Source: Agathobacter sp. (GTDB lineage Bacteria > Bacillota > Clostridia > Lachnospirales > Lachnospiraceae). Taken from it: 64,000 nt of DNA. Below are positions 12,983 to 47,057 of the stretch, piece after piece. Numbering within the stretch: position 1 is the first letter of the stretch; every line of letters begins with the position of its first letter. A program made the position numbers and the translations under genes. The notes below the pieces were generated by a model. The model saw only the letters and a list, made by a program, of their open reading frames with translations. It searched no databases and was not told where the DNA came from. The stretch is from the NCBI GenBank assembly GCA_022775045.1, contig JALFLB010000043.1:1-64000 (forward strand). The letters run 5' to 3'.

Positions 12983-13909
12983 GTGGGAACGATGGACTGG
13001 CTGGGTGTTCATAATGCTTTTATCTACACGTTTGAAACACCTATCATTCATTTGAATCATGAACCGTTTCAGATGCCGGAGGAATTGCTTTTGAAAGCGA
13101 TGCAGCGAAAGGGTAAGGTAAGCAGTATCCCGGCGGTCCGGCAGAGAGTGCGTACTGATGATATCTATAATATGGAGCGACGGGGGATTCGGGAACAGGT
13201 CATGCTGGTTGTGCTTCCACTTTATTCTAATGAGATGCTCTATGGGATACTGCTTTGTGATCTCACGAGTGGCAGCATGGAGAATGGTGAATTTCTGGGA
13301 AATCAGATGTCAGCCGCGGTGAAGATGATCAATCTGCTTAAGACGAATGAGTCTATTATGTTGCAGTTGGAGAAATCGCTTGCGGTTCTTCAAGAGAATA
13401 ATCTGGAACTTGAGACTTTGTCCAAGAGGGATCCATTGACGGGAATCAGGAATCGAAGAGGCTTTTTTCATGAGGCAGAGCCGCTTCTGGAAAAGTGCAG
13501 ACAGGAGTATAAACCGTTGACGGTTATTTATGTAGATATGAACAATCTTAAGATCATCAATGACCGTTATGGACATGAGGAGGGAGATTTTTCGCTAAAG
13601 ACGATTGCTGAGGTTCTCAAAGAGCAGGTCGCAGAGTTTGGAGTTGTAGCAAGAATTGATGGGGATGAATATGCCTGTGCACTAGTGACGGAAGAGAAGG
13701 ATGATGATCTGCTGGAGCATATTTACAATGCCTTTGTTCGGTTTAATGAGACAAGTGAGAAGCCTTATAATGTGACGGTTTCTGCTGGAGCCTACCGAAT
13801 TGAGAAAGATGATAAACATACGCTGGAGGACGCAATGACCTTGGCGGACGAAAGATTATATGAGGTGAAGAAAATCCGTAAGAAGGATGTTGCGAAGACA
13901 ACTGTCTGA
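12983..13909 (+). CDS. GGDEF-domain protein, shortened at the N-terminus, with a variant DGDEY motif
   Basis: The predicted protein has 308 residues (305 from ATG 12992). The first ~130 residues resemble the linker/sensor segment of clostridial GGDEF proteins that normally carry a LacI-like sensor ahead of it. Here an in-frame stop at 12953 shows that the sensor is missing. A helix (about 120-150) leads to RDPLTGIRNRRGF and the GGDEF domain (about 150-300). The active-site motif is DGDEY (226-230) instead of GGDEF. NNLKIINDRYGHEEGD is well conserved. Such proteins make cyclic di-GMP or act as degenerate nucleotide sensors; the first-position Asp makes activity uncertain. The ribosome site is weak, so it may be poorly expressed or a decaying gene. 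Confidence 0.7.
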   Translation: MGTMDWLGVHNAFIYTFETPIIHLNHEPFQMPEELLLKAMQRKGKVSSIPAVRQRVRTDDIYNMERRGIREQVMLVVLPLYSNEMLYGILLCDLTSGSMENGEFLGNQMSAAVKMINLLKTNESIMLQLEKSLAVLQENNLELETLSKRDPLTGIRNRRGFFHEAEPLLEKCRQEYKPLTVIYVDMNNLKIINDRYGHEEGDFSLKTIAEVLKEQVAEFGVVARIDGDEYACALVTEEKDDDLLEHIYNAFVRFNETSEKPYNVTVSAGAYRIEKDDKHTLEDAMTLADERLYEVKKIRKKDVAKTTV

Positions 13910-13914
13910 CAGGA

Positions 13915-13948
13915 GATACTGCTCATGATGATGAGCAGTATCTTTTTT
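13915..13948 (+). terminator. Rho-independent terminator after the GGDEF gene
   Basis: A perfect 12-bp inverted repeat GATACTGCTCAT / ATGAGCAGTATC (13915-13926, 13931-13942) with a 4-nt loop is followed by six T residues. Confidence 0.9.
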
Positions 13949-13973
13949 GCTTCAAGTAACAAAAATACAACAC

Positions 13974-13999: not shown

Positions 14000-14028
14000 T
14001 AGACAAATAACAACAAATGGATTACAAT
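14000..14028 (+). promoter_or_regulatory. Promoter of the acyltransferase/GT8 operon, almost leaderless
   Basis: TAGACA (14000-14005), a 17-nt spacer and TACAAT (14023-14028) form a good sigma-A promoter. Transcription would start near 14035, only 1-3 nt before ATG 14037. No ribosome site precedes that ATG. Confidence 0.6.
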
Positions 14029-14036
14029 AGCATATC

Positions 14037-14837
14037 ATGAAGAACAATCAAAGAATAATTTACTATCAGGATGAATTAAATGATGAGTTTGCAGGAGATC
14101 ATATCAAGGCAAAGAAAATTGATGGTACTTACCAGTATATCCGGGAAGATTTTTGGGGAAAGGTATCTCATATTTTCTGGTATCGGGTAATCGCAATTCC
14201 GCTTGCACGCATTTATATGAAAGTGCATTTCCATCACCGGATTGTGAATCAGGAGCTTTTGAAACAGGCAGGAGACCGTGGATTCTATCTATATGGGAAT
14301 CATACACATTTTCTTGCGGATGCCTTGATTCCAACGCTGGTAAACAGACCGAGGGAAGCATCCGTGATTGTGCATCCCAACAATGTGTCGATGCCGTTTC
14401 TGGGTCGGATTACGCCGAGTCTTGGGGCACTTCCGCTACCGGATGATATGCAGGCGGCGAAGAAGTTTATGAAGGCGTTAGAGCATTGCATCGATAAGGG
14501 ATCCTGTGTTATGATTTATCCCGAAGCTCATATCTGGCCCTTTTATACCGATATTCGTCCATTTAAGGATACGTCATTTCGATATCCGGTTCAGCACCAG
14601 ACGCCTGTATTTTGTCTGACGAATACTTATCAGAAGAGGAAGTCAAAGAAGACACCTGAGATCGTCACCTATATTGACGGTCCTTTTTATGCGGATCATT
14701 CCCTGCCGGTGGGGCAGCAGAAGAAAAAGCTCAGGGATCAGGTTTATGCTGCGATGAAGGAACGGGCAAAAAATAATAATGTTGAGATGATTCACTATGA
14801 GCGGGTAGAACGTAAATCGGGAGAAAGCTATGATTAA
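14037..14837 (+). CDS. PlsC-like 1-acylglycerol-phosphate-type acyltransferase
   Basis: The 266-residue protein is related to glycerolipid acyltransferases. Block I appears as YGNHTHFLADA, where the catalytic His and Asp are spaced HX5D (first His) rather than the textbook HX4D. The same variation occurs in a clostridial subgroup with NHTQ..GD. Block III appears as MIYPEAHIWP. A hydrophobic/aromatic stretch near residues 45-65 probably anchors it at the membrane. It is predicted to transfer a fatty acyl chain to a lipid or glycolipid acceptor. It leads an operon with two GT8 glycosyltransferase genes, the second of which has its own acyltransferase domain, so the acceptor may be a glycolipid. 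The start lacks a ribosome site and lies at the probable transcript 5' end. Confidence 0.75.
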   Translation: MKNNQRIIYYQDELNDEFAGDHIKAKKIDGTYQYIREDFWGKVSHIFWYRVIAIPLARIYMKVHFHHRIVNQELLKQAGDRGFYLYGNHTHFLADALIPTLVNRPREASVIVHPNNVSMPFLGRITPSLGALPLPDDMQAAKKFMKALEHCIDKGSCVMIYPEAHIWPFYTDIRPFKDTSFRYPVQHQTPVFCLTNTYQKRKSKKTPEIVTYIDGPFYADHSLPVGQQKKKLRDQVYAAMKERAKNNNVEMIHYERVERKSGESYD

Positions 14838-15669
14838 TCTGTTATTTTCAGGAAATGGAAAAGTTTTTGATGGAATCTTAAGCTGTTTGTTGTCCATTTT
14901 TAAAAGAACGGACACGAAAGAGCCGTTTCGTGTTTATGTTTTCACCATGAATATTACGAGGGTGAAGCCGGAGTATACTGCGATTTCGCAGGAGATGATC
15001 GATTTCCTGAATGTGGTTGCAAGAGAATATAATAAGGAGAGCGAAGTGCTGCGTGTGGACGTGACAGACCTTTATGAGAAGGAGTTTGCCTACTGCCCGA
15101 ATGAGGGAGCCTATTGTTCTCCGTATACGCTGTTGCGTCTGTTTGCAGATCTTGTCCCGCAGATGCCGGATAAGCTTCTGTATCTGGATGTCGATCTTCT
15201 GTTTAACAGAGATATCCGTTTGCTGTATGATACCGATGTATCGGAGGTGGAGTATGCGGCTGCACGGGATCATTACGGAAAGTATTTGATCAATCCGAAT
15301 TATGTTAATGCAGGTGTGTTGCTTTTTAATCTCGCAAAAATGAAAGAAACCGGACTTCTGGTAAAAGCGCGCAAGTTGATTCAGACAAAAAAGCTGGTAT
15401 TTGCCGATCAGAGCGCAATCATTCGCAGTACAACAAAGAAAAAGATGTTGCCGCAAAAATTTAACGACCAGAAGTTTTTACATAAAAGTACGGTAGTGCG
15501 CCACTTTTCCAAGAGGCTTTTTTATCTTCCATATCCCCATACAGCGAATGTCAAGCAGTGGGAAGTAAGTAAAATACACAGGATTTTTCATTATTATGTA
15601 TTTGATGATATTCTGTATGACTATATTTATCTGAGAAAAAAATATGAAGCAGAGCGAGAGGAGAAATAG
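14830..15669 (+). CDS. Family 8 glycosyltransferase (GT8)
   Basis: The 279-residue protein starts 8 nt inside the previous gene, indicating coupling. The GT8 fold is shown by YTLLRLFADLVPQ followed by LLYLDVDLLF, where DVD is the metal-binding DXD motif. AAARDHY and NYVNAGVLLFNL, the conserved Asn-Ala-Gly acceptor region, come after it. A later HFSKR provides the His expected near the third metal-ligand position. GT8 enzymes use UDP-glucose or UDP-galactose and retain the anomeric configuration. No membrane segment or signal peptide is visible, so it acts in the cytosol or at the inner membrane face. Both the sugar and the acceptor are unknown. Confidence 0.82.
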   Translation: MINLLFSGNGKVFDGILSCLLSIFKRTDTKEPFRVYVFTMNITRVKPEYTAISQEMIDFLNVVAREYNKESEVLRVDVTDLYEKEFAYCPNEGAYCSPYTLLRLFADLVPQMPDKLLYLDVDLLFNRDIRLLYDTDVSEVEYAAARDHYGKYLINPNYVNAGVLLFNLAKMKETGLLVKARKLIQTKKLVFADQSAIIRSTTKKKMLPQKFNDQKFLHKSTVVRHFSKRLFYLPYPHTANVKQWEVSKIHRIFHYYVFDDILYDYIYLRKKYEAEREEK

Positions 15670-15671
15670 GA

Positions 15672-17459
15672 ATGAGTGAACAAAAAAAGATACCGATTTT
15701 TTACGCGTGTGACGACAATTTTGTAAAGTACACAGTTGTGTCCCTGCAGTCTATTATGGAAAATGCATCCGCAGATCAGCAGTATGTAGTTCATGTCCTG
15801 AATACCAATATCTCTGAGGAGATGAAGCAGGTAATGTATCATATGGCAAACGGGCAGTTTGAAATCCGTTTCGATGATGTGACGGATTATTTAAAGTCTA
15901 TCAGAGATAAGCTGCCGCTTCGGGATTACTATTCCAGGACCACATATTTCCGCTTATTTATTGCGGAGATGTTCCCGGAATATGATAAGGCTATTTATAT
16001 TGACAGTGATACTATTGTTCTTGGGGACATTGCAGAGCTGTATGCCTATGATCTCGGAGACAAATATGTTGGGGCCTGCAGTGAACAGGTAATGATGCAG
16101 GAGGATGTGTATGGAACCTATGTGGAGAAAGTTGTTGGTGTGGAGCGTGACAACTTCTTCAATGCCGGGATGATGGTGATCAACTGTGAGCAGTTCCGCC
16201 GCAACCATGTATTGGATCAGTTTATTGAACTGTTGCACATGTATAATTTTGTTGTGACACAGGATGAGGATTATCTGAATGTAATCTGCCATAATAAGGT
16301 CTGCTGGCTGCCGTCCAAGTGGAATGTTGAGATGTTCGGACAGCTGCCTTGCGAGGAGGAGGACATCTGCATGATTCACTATATTATGGTGTCGAAGCCA
16401 TGGCACTATGAGGATTGCCGCATGAAGGAGCATTTCTGGGAATATGCGAAGAAAACGGCTGTATATGAGCAGATTCTTGAAGTCCTGGAGAATTATACGG
16501 ATGCAGATCGTGCAGAAGACGCAGCATCAGCGGAACGCCTGATGCAGTTGGCAAAAGATGAGACGGCAAAGGAAAACAATTATATGAATCTCGTCAAGGC
16601 AGGAAAGCTCAAAGCCAAAGATCGTCTTCAGGTGCTTGACCGGATTGCAAAGCTGGAGCGGGAAGGGCGTTTTGACGAGGATGTGGAGGAAGATCCCCCT
16701 ACACGTGAATTAAAGCCGAAAGAGATTGATTATTTAAAAAAAAAGGTGAGTAGTAAAATTAAGACAAAGCTTACCTACAAAGTGGCAAGGAAGTTTTTGA
16801 ACCGGATTCTGGATGAAAAAAAGCTGATCATTAAGGATGTAAAAGGAGTCGAGAATATGGACGCTCTTTGTTCGGGAGCGGTTATTACCTGTAATCACTT
16901 TAATGCCTATGACAGCTTTGCGGTTCAGATTGCCTATGAGCGTTCCGGTCAGTGCAAAAAGAGACGGCTTTACCGGGTGATTCGTGAGGGAAATTATACG
17001 AATTTTCCGGGATTTTACGGGATGCTGATGCGTAACTGCTATACGTTTCCGCTTAGCTCCAACAAGGAAACTATGAAAAAATTCATGCGTTCTATGGATG
17101 CAGTGCTTCAGCATGGAGATTTTATGGTTGTATATCCGGAACAGAGTATGTGGTGGAATTACCGTAAGCCGAAGCCTTTGAAGAAGGGGGCGTTCACCTT
17201 TGCGGCAAAGAATAATGTTCCGGTGCTGCCAGTATTTATTACCATGGAGGACAGCGATATCCTTGGGGATGACGGTTTCTATGTGCAGGAGTATACCATT
17301 CATATCGCACCGGCCATTTATCCGGATTCGAATTTGACCCGTGCGGAAAATGTAGAAAAAATGAAAGATGCCAACTATAGGATCTGGAAAGAAATCTATG
17401 AGGAAACCTATGGCGAACCATTAGTGTACGATTGTGATGACAGTGCAACAAGTGCGTAA
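15672..17459 (+). CDS. Bifunctional GT8 glycosyltransferase / PlsC-like acyltransferase
   Basis: The 595-residue fusion has two enzymatic domains. Residues about 5-270 are GT8 (YYSRTTYFRLFIAEMFPEYD, DXD motif in YIDSDTIVLGD, FFNAGMMVIN, and a DEDYLN segment). A charged helical linker spans about 270-360. Residues about 375-590 are a PlsC-type acyltransferase with exact HX4D in CNHFNAYDS and PEQSMWW in place of EGTR. The gene follows the previous GT8 gene by two bases. Having sugar transfer and acyl transfer in one chain, beside separate genes for each, strongly suggests stepwise building of an acylated glycolipid or lipid-linked oligosaccharide. I know of no named pathway with this exact set. 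The domain calls are well supported; the product is inferred. Confidence 0.82.
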   Translation: MSEQKKIPIFYACDDNFVKYTVVSLQSIMENASADQQYVVHVLNTNISEEMKQVMYHMANGQFEIRFDDVTDYLKSIRDKLPLRDYYSRTTYFRLFIAEMFPEYDKAIYIDSDTIVLGDIAELYAYDLGDKYVGACSEQVMMQEDVYGTYVEKVVGVERDNFFNAGMMVINCEQFRRNHVLDQFIELLHMYNFVVTQDEDYLNVICHNKVCWLPSKWNVEMFGQLPCEEEDICMIHYIMVSKPWHYEDCRMKEHFWEYAKKTAVYEQILEVLENYTDADRAEDAASAERLMQLAKDETAKENNYMNLVKAGKLKAKDRLQVLDRIAKLEREGRFDEDVEEDPPTRELKPKEIDYLKKKVSSKIKTKLTYKVARKFLNRILDEKKLIIKDVKGVENMDALCSGAVITCNHFNAYDSFAVQIAYERSGQCKKRRLYRVIREGNYTNFPGFYGMLMRNCYTFPLSSNKETMKKFMRSMDAVLQHGDFMVVYPEQSMWWNYRKPKPLKKGAFTFAAKNNVPVLPVFITMEDSDILGDDGFYVQEYTIHIAPAIYPDSNLTRAENVEKMKDANYRIWKEIYEETYGEPLVYDCDDSATSA

Positions 17460-17583: not shown

Positions 17584-17676
17584 AAATTTGAACGTTCGCT
17601 TGTGGGTCATTTATATGATTGACGGCAGGCGAAGGAAAAGGATCACGAAAAAGAAGATAAAGAAAGGATTGGATTG

Positions 17677-18702
17677 ATGAAAACGAAAGTTTCAAAGAAA
17701 ATTGGCAGTTTAGTGTTAGCACTTGCTATTGCTTTTACAGCCGTATTTGCGACTGTTACTCCGGTAGAGGCAGCGACAACAGATTATAAGTCATTGTATG
17801 CATCACCAGAGATGGGCGAAGAAGGTTATGCAAATACGGAAGTGAGAATTCATTTTACGGTCCCAAGTGAGGGAAAAGTGTGGTTTTTAATCCAGACGCT
17901 TGCTCCATGTGAAATGAAACTGGCTCTCTATAATAGTGCTGGAAATCTTGTCGCGGATGATTATTTGGGAAATCCATATACAGTAAGTGCGTATGATAGT
18001 AATTGGTATGCGAATAGTTATGGATATGCTGAGTATGATGAGACATGGAACTTAGCTGCTGGAGATTATACATATGGAATTACTTTTACAGAGGATACCC
18101 CTTTTCTTTTAGATGTTATTGAAGAGGGAACAAAAGCAACCATCAGCCAGACAAAGGCGACCATCACTAAGGGATTTACCAAGAAGCTTTCTGTAAGTGG
18201 TGGCACAGTTAAGTCATGGTCTTCCAATAAGAAGTCTGTTGCAACCGTTGACAAGAAAGGTAAGGTTACTGCTAAGAAGGCAGGTAAGGCAACAATTACT
18301 GCTACATTGACTGACGGAACAAAGTTAAAGTGTAATGTGACCGTTAAGGATAACAAGTACTCTGCCAGCAAGATTACCACTTCTGATGTTTATTATGGCA
18401 AGTGTGCTATGAGTGCCTACAGTGCAAGCTTCGATACCAAGGGAAATCTTGTTGTAAAGACGAAATTTGTAAACAATGATTATTATAAGGTCGTTGCACT
18501 TAAGAATATTAAGATCGTTGTCAAGGATGGTAATGGTAAGACGGTTGGAACATACAAGGCATCCAAGAAGAATGTGACTGTTTCATCTGGTTCAACCAAA
18601 GATATAACCTTTACCATTAAGAAATCCAGTCTGAAGAAGAAGAAGGCGGATTTGAGAAATTGTACAATTACATGTGATGGAATATACGAGTATTATTACT
18701 AA
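17677..18702 (+). CDS. Secreted protein with a Big2 (Ig-like) domain
   Basis: The protein has about 341 residues. A signal peptide is clear, with basic MKTKVSKKIG, a hydrophobic core and a probable cleavage near PVEAATT. A jelly-roll-like region follows (about 35-150; rich in Tyr, Asp, Asn), resembling pre-peptidase C-terminal-type domains. A bacterial Ig-like group 2 domain (about 155-230; SWSSNKKSVATVDKKGKVTA, then KKAGKATITATL) comes next. A lysine-rich C-terminal domain (about 235-341) looks like another beta-sandwich. There is no cell-wall sorting motif or membrane anchor, so it is probably released or bound to the wall by charge. The gene stands alone between its own promoter and a terminator. 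Its function is unknown; adhesion or glycan binding would be typical of Big2 proteins. Confidence 0.75.
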   Translation: MKTKVSKKIGSLVLALAIAFTAVFATVTPVEAATTDYKSLYASPEMGEEGYANTEVRIHFTVPSEGKVWFLIQTLAPCEMKLALYNSAGNLVADDYLGNPYTVSAYDSNWYANSYGYAEYDETWNLAAGDYTYGITFTEDTPFLLDVIEEGTKATISQTKATITKGFTKKLSVSGGTVKSWSSNKKSVATVDKKGKVTAKKAGKATITATLTDGTKLKCNVTVKDNKYSASKITTSDVYYGKCAMSAYSASFDTKGNLVVKTKFVNNDYYKVVALKNIKIVVKDGNGKTVGTYKASKKNVTVSSGSTKDITFTIKKSSLKKKKADLRNCTITCDGIYEYYY

Positions 18703-18988: not shown

Positions 18989-19059
18989 GCAGATGTAGTT
19001 CATCGGTAGAACACCAGCTTCCCAAGCTGGGGAGGCGGGTTCGACTCCCGTCATCTGCT
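18989..19059 (+). tRNA. tRNA-Gly (anticodon CCC)
   Basis: A complete cloverleaf can be folded. The acceptor is GCAGATG / CATCTGC with discriminator T, the D-arm is GTTC...GAAC, the anticodon stem is CCAGC / GCTGG around the loop TTCCCAA, and the T-arm has the loop TTCGACT. The CCC anticodon reads GGG glycine codons. CCA is not encoded. It has its own promoter and terminator, so it is a single-gene unit. Confidence 0.95.
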
Positions 19060-46923: not shown

Positions 46924-46935
46924 AATATTAGTTAT

Positions 46936-47016
46936 ATGACTGACGGATAAGTGGAGAACCACGTGGAGTATAACAGAGATTGTAAGGAGTACGATAACAG
47001 CCGACCGTCTGGGCAG
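46936..47016 (+). ncRNA. ZTP riboswitch (pfl motif)
   Basis: The aptamer features are present. There is an ACTGACGG segment, a hairpin GTGG-AGAA-CCAC (46951-46962), a GTGGAG internal-loop segment, a variable stem, and the 3' block CCGTCTGGGCA (47005-47015). GACGG (46942-46946) is complementary to CCGTC (47005-47009), the expected pseudoknot. ZTP riboswitches sense AICAR triphosphate, made when 10-formyl-THF is short, and switch on folate and purine genes. The genes downstream encode the AICAR formylation step itself and IMP cyclohydrolase, which fits exactly. Confidence 0.85.
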
Positions 47017-47057
47017 ACATCGCAAGATGGTTCTGTCTGGATGTGTTGGCTCTTTTT
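46999..47057 (+). terminator. Riboswitch-controlled terminator
   Basis: AGCCGAC (46999-47005) pairs with GTTGGCT (47045-47051), and CAGAC (47014-47018) pairs with GTCTG (47035-47039) inside the same hairpin, followed by C and TTTTT. The hairpin uses the aptamer's 3' CCGTC strand. Ligand-bound aptamer and terminator should therefore exclude each other, giving an ON switch. Confidence 0.75.

Follow-up and report, generated by a model that had tools for sequence, protein, structure and literature searches.

The window analysed here, i.e. the first 64,000 nucleotides of contig JALFLB010000043.1 (assembly GCA_022775045.1) of Agathobacter sp., a member of the Lachnospiraceae, carries three open reading frames (ORFs) on one strand at 14037-17459 that together encode two glycosyltransferase family 8 (GT8) domains and two PlsC-like acyltransferase domains. 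The PlsC-like enzyme is termed AT1, the separate GT8 enzyme GT8b, and the two halves of a fusion protein GT8a and AT2. The AT1 and GT8b genes overlap by 8 bp and a gap of 2 bp separates GT8b from the fusion gene:

14037..14837, + strand: AT1, PlsC-superfamily acyltransferase, 266 aa, with an HX5D motif (H89/D95) and block III YPEAHxW
14830..15669, + strand: GT8b, GT8 glycosyltransferase, 279 aa, with DXD motif YLDVD and a PF01501 match of 50.5 bits
15672..17459, + strand: GT8a-AT2 fusion, 595 aa, with a GT8 domain at about 1-275, a helical linker and a PlsC-type domain at about 316-590

The initial annotation had described three linked genes with two GT8 and two PlsC-like domains, one pair being fused, and Pfam bore this out with all scores above their cut-offs. 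PF01553 (cut-off 23 bits) matched AT1 at 31.3 bits and the C-terminal half of the fusion at 48.1 bits (residues 393-523), whilst PF01501 (cut-off 24.3 bits) matched GT8b and the N-terminal half of the fusion (156.5 bits, residues 8-247). No clear transmembrane helix was seen in the hydropathy of the enzymes, which on the best reading of their sequences would be peripheral to the membrane. Comparison of the cassette proteins with PHROGs gave no match, and a PADLOC match between Cas2 and 21 residues of AT1 (E 0.0014) was taken as chance.

Distribution of the cassette

The cassette was surveyed in a sample of 397 genomes of the same family, taken as Lachnospiraceae on account of two named close relatives (see below), with domains mapped by tblastn on retrieved stretches. 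Four contiguous enzymes on one strand were found in 18/397 genomes, in the order AT1-GT8b-GT8a-AT2 in 15 and GT8b-GT8a-AT2-AT1 in three (i.e. G061, G047 and G259; the AT2 frame of G061 is interrupted in the assembly). Junctions in the complete copies were mostly overlapping or of no more than about 20 bp, with exceptions of up to 118 bp. Recurrence of the contiguous set in this many genomes indicates that the layout is not due to chance. A full-length, uninterrupted fusion was present in 7/397 genomes, the window included; of the 18 complete contiguous cassettes, 11 have GT8a and AT2 unfused. The genes of the proposed three-gene operon are thus real, but they represent one form of a four-enzyme cassette. 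Two named relatives from sheep rectum, both Lachnospiraceae (L033 and L034, with best-segment identities of 79% and 63%), also carry complete, fused cassettes, bringing the fused loci examined to nine. Pairwise identities of the four families were correlated (Pearson 0.79 to 0.96 at 16 loci), as joint inheritance predicts and as plain vertical descent would equally yield.

At E values up to 1e-25, the GT8b profile matched 18/299 family genomes, every one within a mapped cassette, i.e. 16 complete cassettes, G130 (with AT1 elsewhere) and G042 (a variant with a GT2 enzyme, see below). Matches to the AT1 profile were obtained in 27/397 genomes at E up to 1e-20, of which 24 were strong (E up to 1e-80) and comprised 18 complete cassettes, two copies away from the cassette, two GT2 variants and two solo genes. 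Profiles A1 and A2 (GT8b) excluded L050 and L047, respectively, and profile A3 excluded some of the unfused GT8a and AT2 genes. Across the order, GT8b was detected in 3/295 genomes, all within Lachnospiraceae; one of these, G1019, has GT8b-GT8a-AT2 on a short locus that ends there. The single AT1 protein (E up to 0.001) matched 8/196 genomes of the order, with G564 as the sole good match outside the family (38% identity), and at phylum level the AT1 profile (E up to 1e-10) matched 3/398 genomes, i.e. that of the window and two others that were far weaker. These searches indicate a cassette that is patchy within the family, with no complete copy seen outside it. The cassette is real and conserved in a minority of one bacterial family.

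Active-site motifs and predicted folds

Both motifs claimed for the fusion are intact, with a DXD in GT8a (YIDSD) and an HX4D in AT2 (NHFNAYDS). The DXD was kept in 21/21 GT8b rows and 22/23 GT8a rows; the exception, a lone GT8a relative in G068 (L046:8829-9800), has EAA in its place and is perhaps non-catalytic. In a sequence search, GT8b profile A2 matched the PDB entries LgtC, WbbM, GlyE and 3tzt. Predicted structures cover AT1 and GT8a, and the GT8a model has the GT-A fold of GT8 enzymes, with LgtC and WbbM the closest structures and GlyE among the matches. LgtC acts in lipooligosaccharide synthesis and WbbM in O-antigen synthesis, whilst GlyE glycosylates protein. Unlike the window enzyme, neither neisserial LgtC nor the GT8 domain of Klebsiella WbbM carries a PlsC domain. 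GT8b and GT8a are probably retaining, DXD-type enzymes with UDP-galactose or UDP-glucose as donor. Soluble LgtC turns lactosylceramide into Gb3 on model membranes (PMC9952996).

At the position of Gln189 in LgtC, GT8a of the window (15672-17459) carries Glu, within TQDEDYLN. Glu occurs here in 5/9 fused proteins (the window and L033-L036, forming one 100/99 clade) and in the diverged L046, whereas 17/23 GT8a rows have Gln; among 12 other distinct GT8 matches, Gln was found in ten, Glu in one and Lys in one. Structure 1ss9 is the Q189E mutant of LgtC. Q189 is the polar group closest to donor C1 in LgtC (PMC3731257), so that this Glu is in effect a test, supplied by nature, of the retaining mechanism.

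The motif of AT1 is H-X5-D (H89, D95), unchanged in 17/17 aligned relatives and present also at the GT2-variant loci L070 and L071; the relative in G564, outside the family, has HX4D. HX4D was found in 18/19 AT2 rows, with HX4E in L052. PatA and LpxJ are superfamily members with departures from HX4D. The intact HX4D of the initial annotation is that of AT2, and AT1 has HX5D. Both enzymes lack EGTR, this block being replaced by EAHx in AT1 (17/17) and by EQ in AT2 (19/19). Elsewhere in the same genome, a PlsC on C41 retains FPEGTR and a copy on C43 has FPEGGY. As the EGTR arginine binds the phosphate of the acceptor, its loss from both enzymes makes a sugar or glycolipid acceptor likelier than a lysophospholipid and argues against AT1 and AT2 being ordinary lysophosphatidic acid acyltransferases (LPAATs). 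Scores against TIGR00530 (1-acylglycerol-3-phosphate acyltransferase; cut-off 102.95 bits) were 17.3 bits for AT1 and 37.2 bits for the fusion, and the cassette was on these scores rejected as an LPAAT set. Compared with PlsC/LPAAT enzymes (T. maritima 5kym; TIGR00530), the cassette acyltransferases have lost EGTR and AT1 has HX5D. One AT1 relative, at L041, scored 21.9 bits with PF01553, slightly below the cut-off of 23.

The AT1 model has the fold of the PlsC superfamily, resembling PlsC, glycerol-3-phosphate acyltransferase (GPAT), PatA and LpxM, and its lowest Foldseek E-value was to LpxM, a lipid A acyltransferase. Searches of PDB sequences gave only weak, unrelated matches for AT2 (E up to 10) and no match for profile A1 (E up to 0.001). 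PatA is a sugar-acylating enzyme of the same fold that employs a His together with a block-3 Glu (PMC4792965). The AT1 set excluded L033, L047, L051 and L069 and the AT2 set excluded L044, L054 and L069, all missed or split by the ORF caller, together with the interrupted L041. In a midpoint-rooted tree of AT1, AT2 and PlsC, long branches meet and the mutual relation is unrooted.

Origin of the fusion and a variable third slot

The nine fused loci were set apart from all other rows by a single branch in the GT8a tree (100/99; built without L046) and in the GT8b tree (96/95), and eight AT1 rows from fused loci clustered together at 100/99. In the AT2 tree, the unfused L042 sat within the fused rows (support of 93/99 for the group that includes it), a placement that rules out a single fusion clade there. 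These trees fit one fusion event followed by a split or an AT2 exchange in the L042 lineage; two separate events may instead lie behind the fused/unfused pattern.

In two genomes (G358, locus L070, and G042, locus L071), a membrane GT2 enzyme of 406-407 aa replaces GT8a in the third slot. The two enzymes share 67% identity over most of their length, and that of L070 matched the GT2 profiles PF13632 and PF13641 and has four hydrophobic stretches. Both variants retain AT1, GT8b and a diverged AT2 (31% and 35% identity to that of the window over the matched parts). The third slot can thus be exchanged, with GT2 in place of GT8a, which points to a modular route yielding related products. Genome G891, from another family of the phylum, carries a frame of 672 aa (L073:457-2475) which, like the window fusion, joins a glycosyltransferase-looking half to a half matching the AT1 profile; by eye its first half is GT4-like, as against GT8 in the window. 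This frame is apparently an independent glycosyltransferase-PlsC fusion.

Flanking sequence and genomic context

Two features lie immediately upstream of the cassette:

13914..13943, + strand: terminator-like hairpin, a 13-bp perfect stem then Ts (inverted repeat, 100% complementary)
14000..14028, + strand: promoter-like TAGACA-17-TACAAT upstream of AT1, weak, with 10/12 consensus matches

The hairpin sits between an upstream GGDEF gene and AT1; a terminator scan of the region did not list it, and folding of 13908-13955 gave -22.8 kcal/mol (z -5.8). From its position, the cassette is probably a separate transcription unit, and the GGDEF gene (12983-13909) was therefore not counted as part of it. 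The promoter match is weak since 15 such sites occur in the region against 9.2 expected. At one GT2-variant locus (L070:3387-5246), a GGDEF-EAL gene ends 24 bp ahead of AT1. Downstream in the window, 17674-18702 encodes a Big_2 domain with a SLAP-type match and is perhaps surface-exposed, and Rfam matches in the window were confined to a ZMP/ZTP riboswitch (46926-47021) and tRNA-Gly (ccc) (18989-19059).

Flanks were surveyed by ORF clustering at 25 loci, with L046 left out and clusters not all profiled. Cassette proteins were present at 25/25 loci, the next group being ABC-type ATPases (by eye) at 14 loci in scattered positions. Groups at 7 to 10 loci were antisense shadows of the cassette, and no other gene family occurred at more than 4/25 loci. 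No polymerase or sugar-nucleotide gene was seen travelling with the cassette in this clustering.

At E up to 0.001, the GT8 domains of the cassette are the only two in the assembly (2.45 Mb, about 90% complete), which contains four PF01553 domains, i.e. the two of the cassette and two elsewhere. It holds one PF01066 match, a CDP-alcohol phosphatidyltransferase that is not subtyped and is presumably the phosphatidylglycerol-phosphate synthase. Five PF00884 matches and one to PF06925 (MGDG_synth, UgtP-type) all lie off the cassette contig, C18, and the genome may contain genes of the lipoteichoic acid (LTA) type.

A candidate route to an acylated glycolipid

Composition of the cassette and its linkage, which persists across wide sequence divergence, fit one pathway, and our preferred, if modestly held, reading is a compact four-enzyme route to an acylated dihexosyl glycolipid at the cytosolic face of the membrane. 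GT8b and GT8a would add two sugars successively to an acceptor in the membrane that both share, with diacylglycerol or a glycosyl-diacylglycerol as the probable candidates, and AT1 and AT2 would then transfer acyl chains from an activated donor to sugar hydroxyls. With GT8a fused to AT2, acylation could follow directly on sugar addition by GT8a, with no release in between. The logic would be that of mycobacterial phosphatidylinositol mannoside (PIM) assembly by PimA, PimB and PatA, with unrelated glycosyltransferases. We infer the action of all four enzymes on one molecule, along with the acceptor, the donors and the order of steps. The initial annotation predicted a lipid bearing two sugars plus one acyl group or two, which accords with this enzyme set, though as a product it is itself deduced.

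Several observations weigh against this reading. AT1 lies elsewhere in the genome in G130 and G324, which have GT8b-GT8a-AT2, and solo AT1 relatives occur in G216 and G134, so AT1 is less bound to the cassette than GT8b; G189 has only GT8a-AT2 within its 19-kb stretch. The AT2 tree, with unfused L042 inside the fused rows, does not part fused from unfused copies. VIA ranked PlsC best for the AT1 model, above PatA and LpxM. The MGDG_synth match means that the cassette is not the sole possible glycolipid route in this genome.

An improbable alternative is synthesis of a saccharolipid de novo, in which a small soluble acceptor receives a disaccharide from the GT8 enzymes and the only acyl chains come from AT1 and AT2, the result being a diacyl sugar lipid that lacks a glycerol core. 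The pairing of two acyltransferases with two glycosyltransferases, the lack of a recurrent acceptor-making gene at the 25 loci, the missing EGTR and the top Foldseek E-value to LpxM would suit such a product, but VIA places PlsC and GPAT over LpxM, and the closest relatives of GT8a extend pre-existing glycans. It is rather unlikely that a saccharolipid of this kind resembling lipid A, i.e. a disaccharide with chains only from AT1 and AT2, is produced by some gut-type Lachnospiraceae. If it were, it would be a lipid class new for Gram-positive bacteria, with the fused enzyme adding the last sugar and the last acyl group.

About as doubtful as de novo synthesis is a role in decorating an LTA-type anchor glycolipid that is already in place, possibly with butyryl or other short acyl groups. 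The genome itself offers five PF00884 matches, perhaps of the LtaS type, and the MGDG_synth match; these are on contigs other than that of the cassette, however, no LTA-type family stands out at the 25 loci, where not all clusters were profiled, and the sequence does not reveal acyl length. Unusual butyryl-bearing lipids are known from Butyrivibrio. Diabolic-acid lipids occur in the same genus (PMC13274423).

Two unrelated activities within one operon, with phospholipids remodelled by the PlsC-like enzymes and a surface glycan or glycoprotein as the product of the GT8 enzymes, appear more unlikely again. Many PF01553 members are lysophospholipid acyltransferases and GlyE, a structural match of GT8a, glycosylates protein; yet GT8a is fused to AT2 at nine examined loci and adjoins it elsewhere, the genome has two further PlsC-type genes, and both cassette acyltransferases have lost EGTR. 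A PIM-like product on phosphatidylinositol is very unlikely, given the one CDP-alcohol phosphatidyltransferase (not subtyped) in an assembly that is about 90% complete.

Relation to known systems and implications

The preferred glycolipid pathway would resemble PIM assembly (PMC4792965), in which two glycosyltransferases are combined with a PlsC-fold acyltransferase that acylates the sugar of a membrane glycolipid. PimA and PimB are GT-B enzymes, whereas both cassette glycosyltransferases are GT8, with the GT8 fold in GT8a, and the cassette differs further in its two acyltransferases and its glycosyltransferase-acyltransferase fusion. The different glycosyltransferase family and the single CDP-alcohol phosphatidyltransferase indicate that the cassette is not a PIM pathway. 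Among the diglycosyl-diacylglycerol synthases of Firmicutes, UgtP belongs to GT28 and LafA and LafB to GT4. These enzymes make dihexosyl glycolipids, as proposed for the cassette, but are of other families and have no acyltransferases in the set. In open-access literature, the scope of the search (subscription papers and preprints lying outside it), no description of such a layout or of matching glycolipids of the family was found among the papers listed, which is a weak sign of absence. This agrees with the initial statement that no named pathway has this layout, and the cassette is apparently undescribed so far. Taken singly, its enzyme families are ordinary; what seems new is how they are combined, the fusion and a GT8b subfamily confined to the cassette.

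The natural Glu at the Gln189 position of LgtC bears on how retaining glycosyltransferases work, and the GT8-PlsC fusion would model the coupling of glycosylation to sugar acylation. Little is known about the membrane glycolipids of Gram-positive commensals of the gut, and in other bacteria alpha-linked glycolipids can act as immune ligands. A compact, contiguous set of four enzymes suits heterologous expression, which would make a lipid of this large gut family directly testable.

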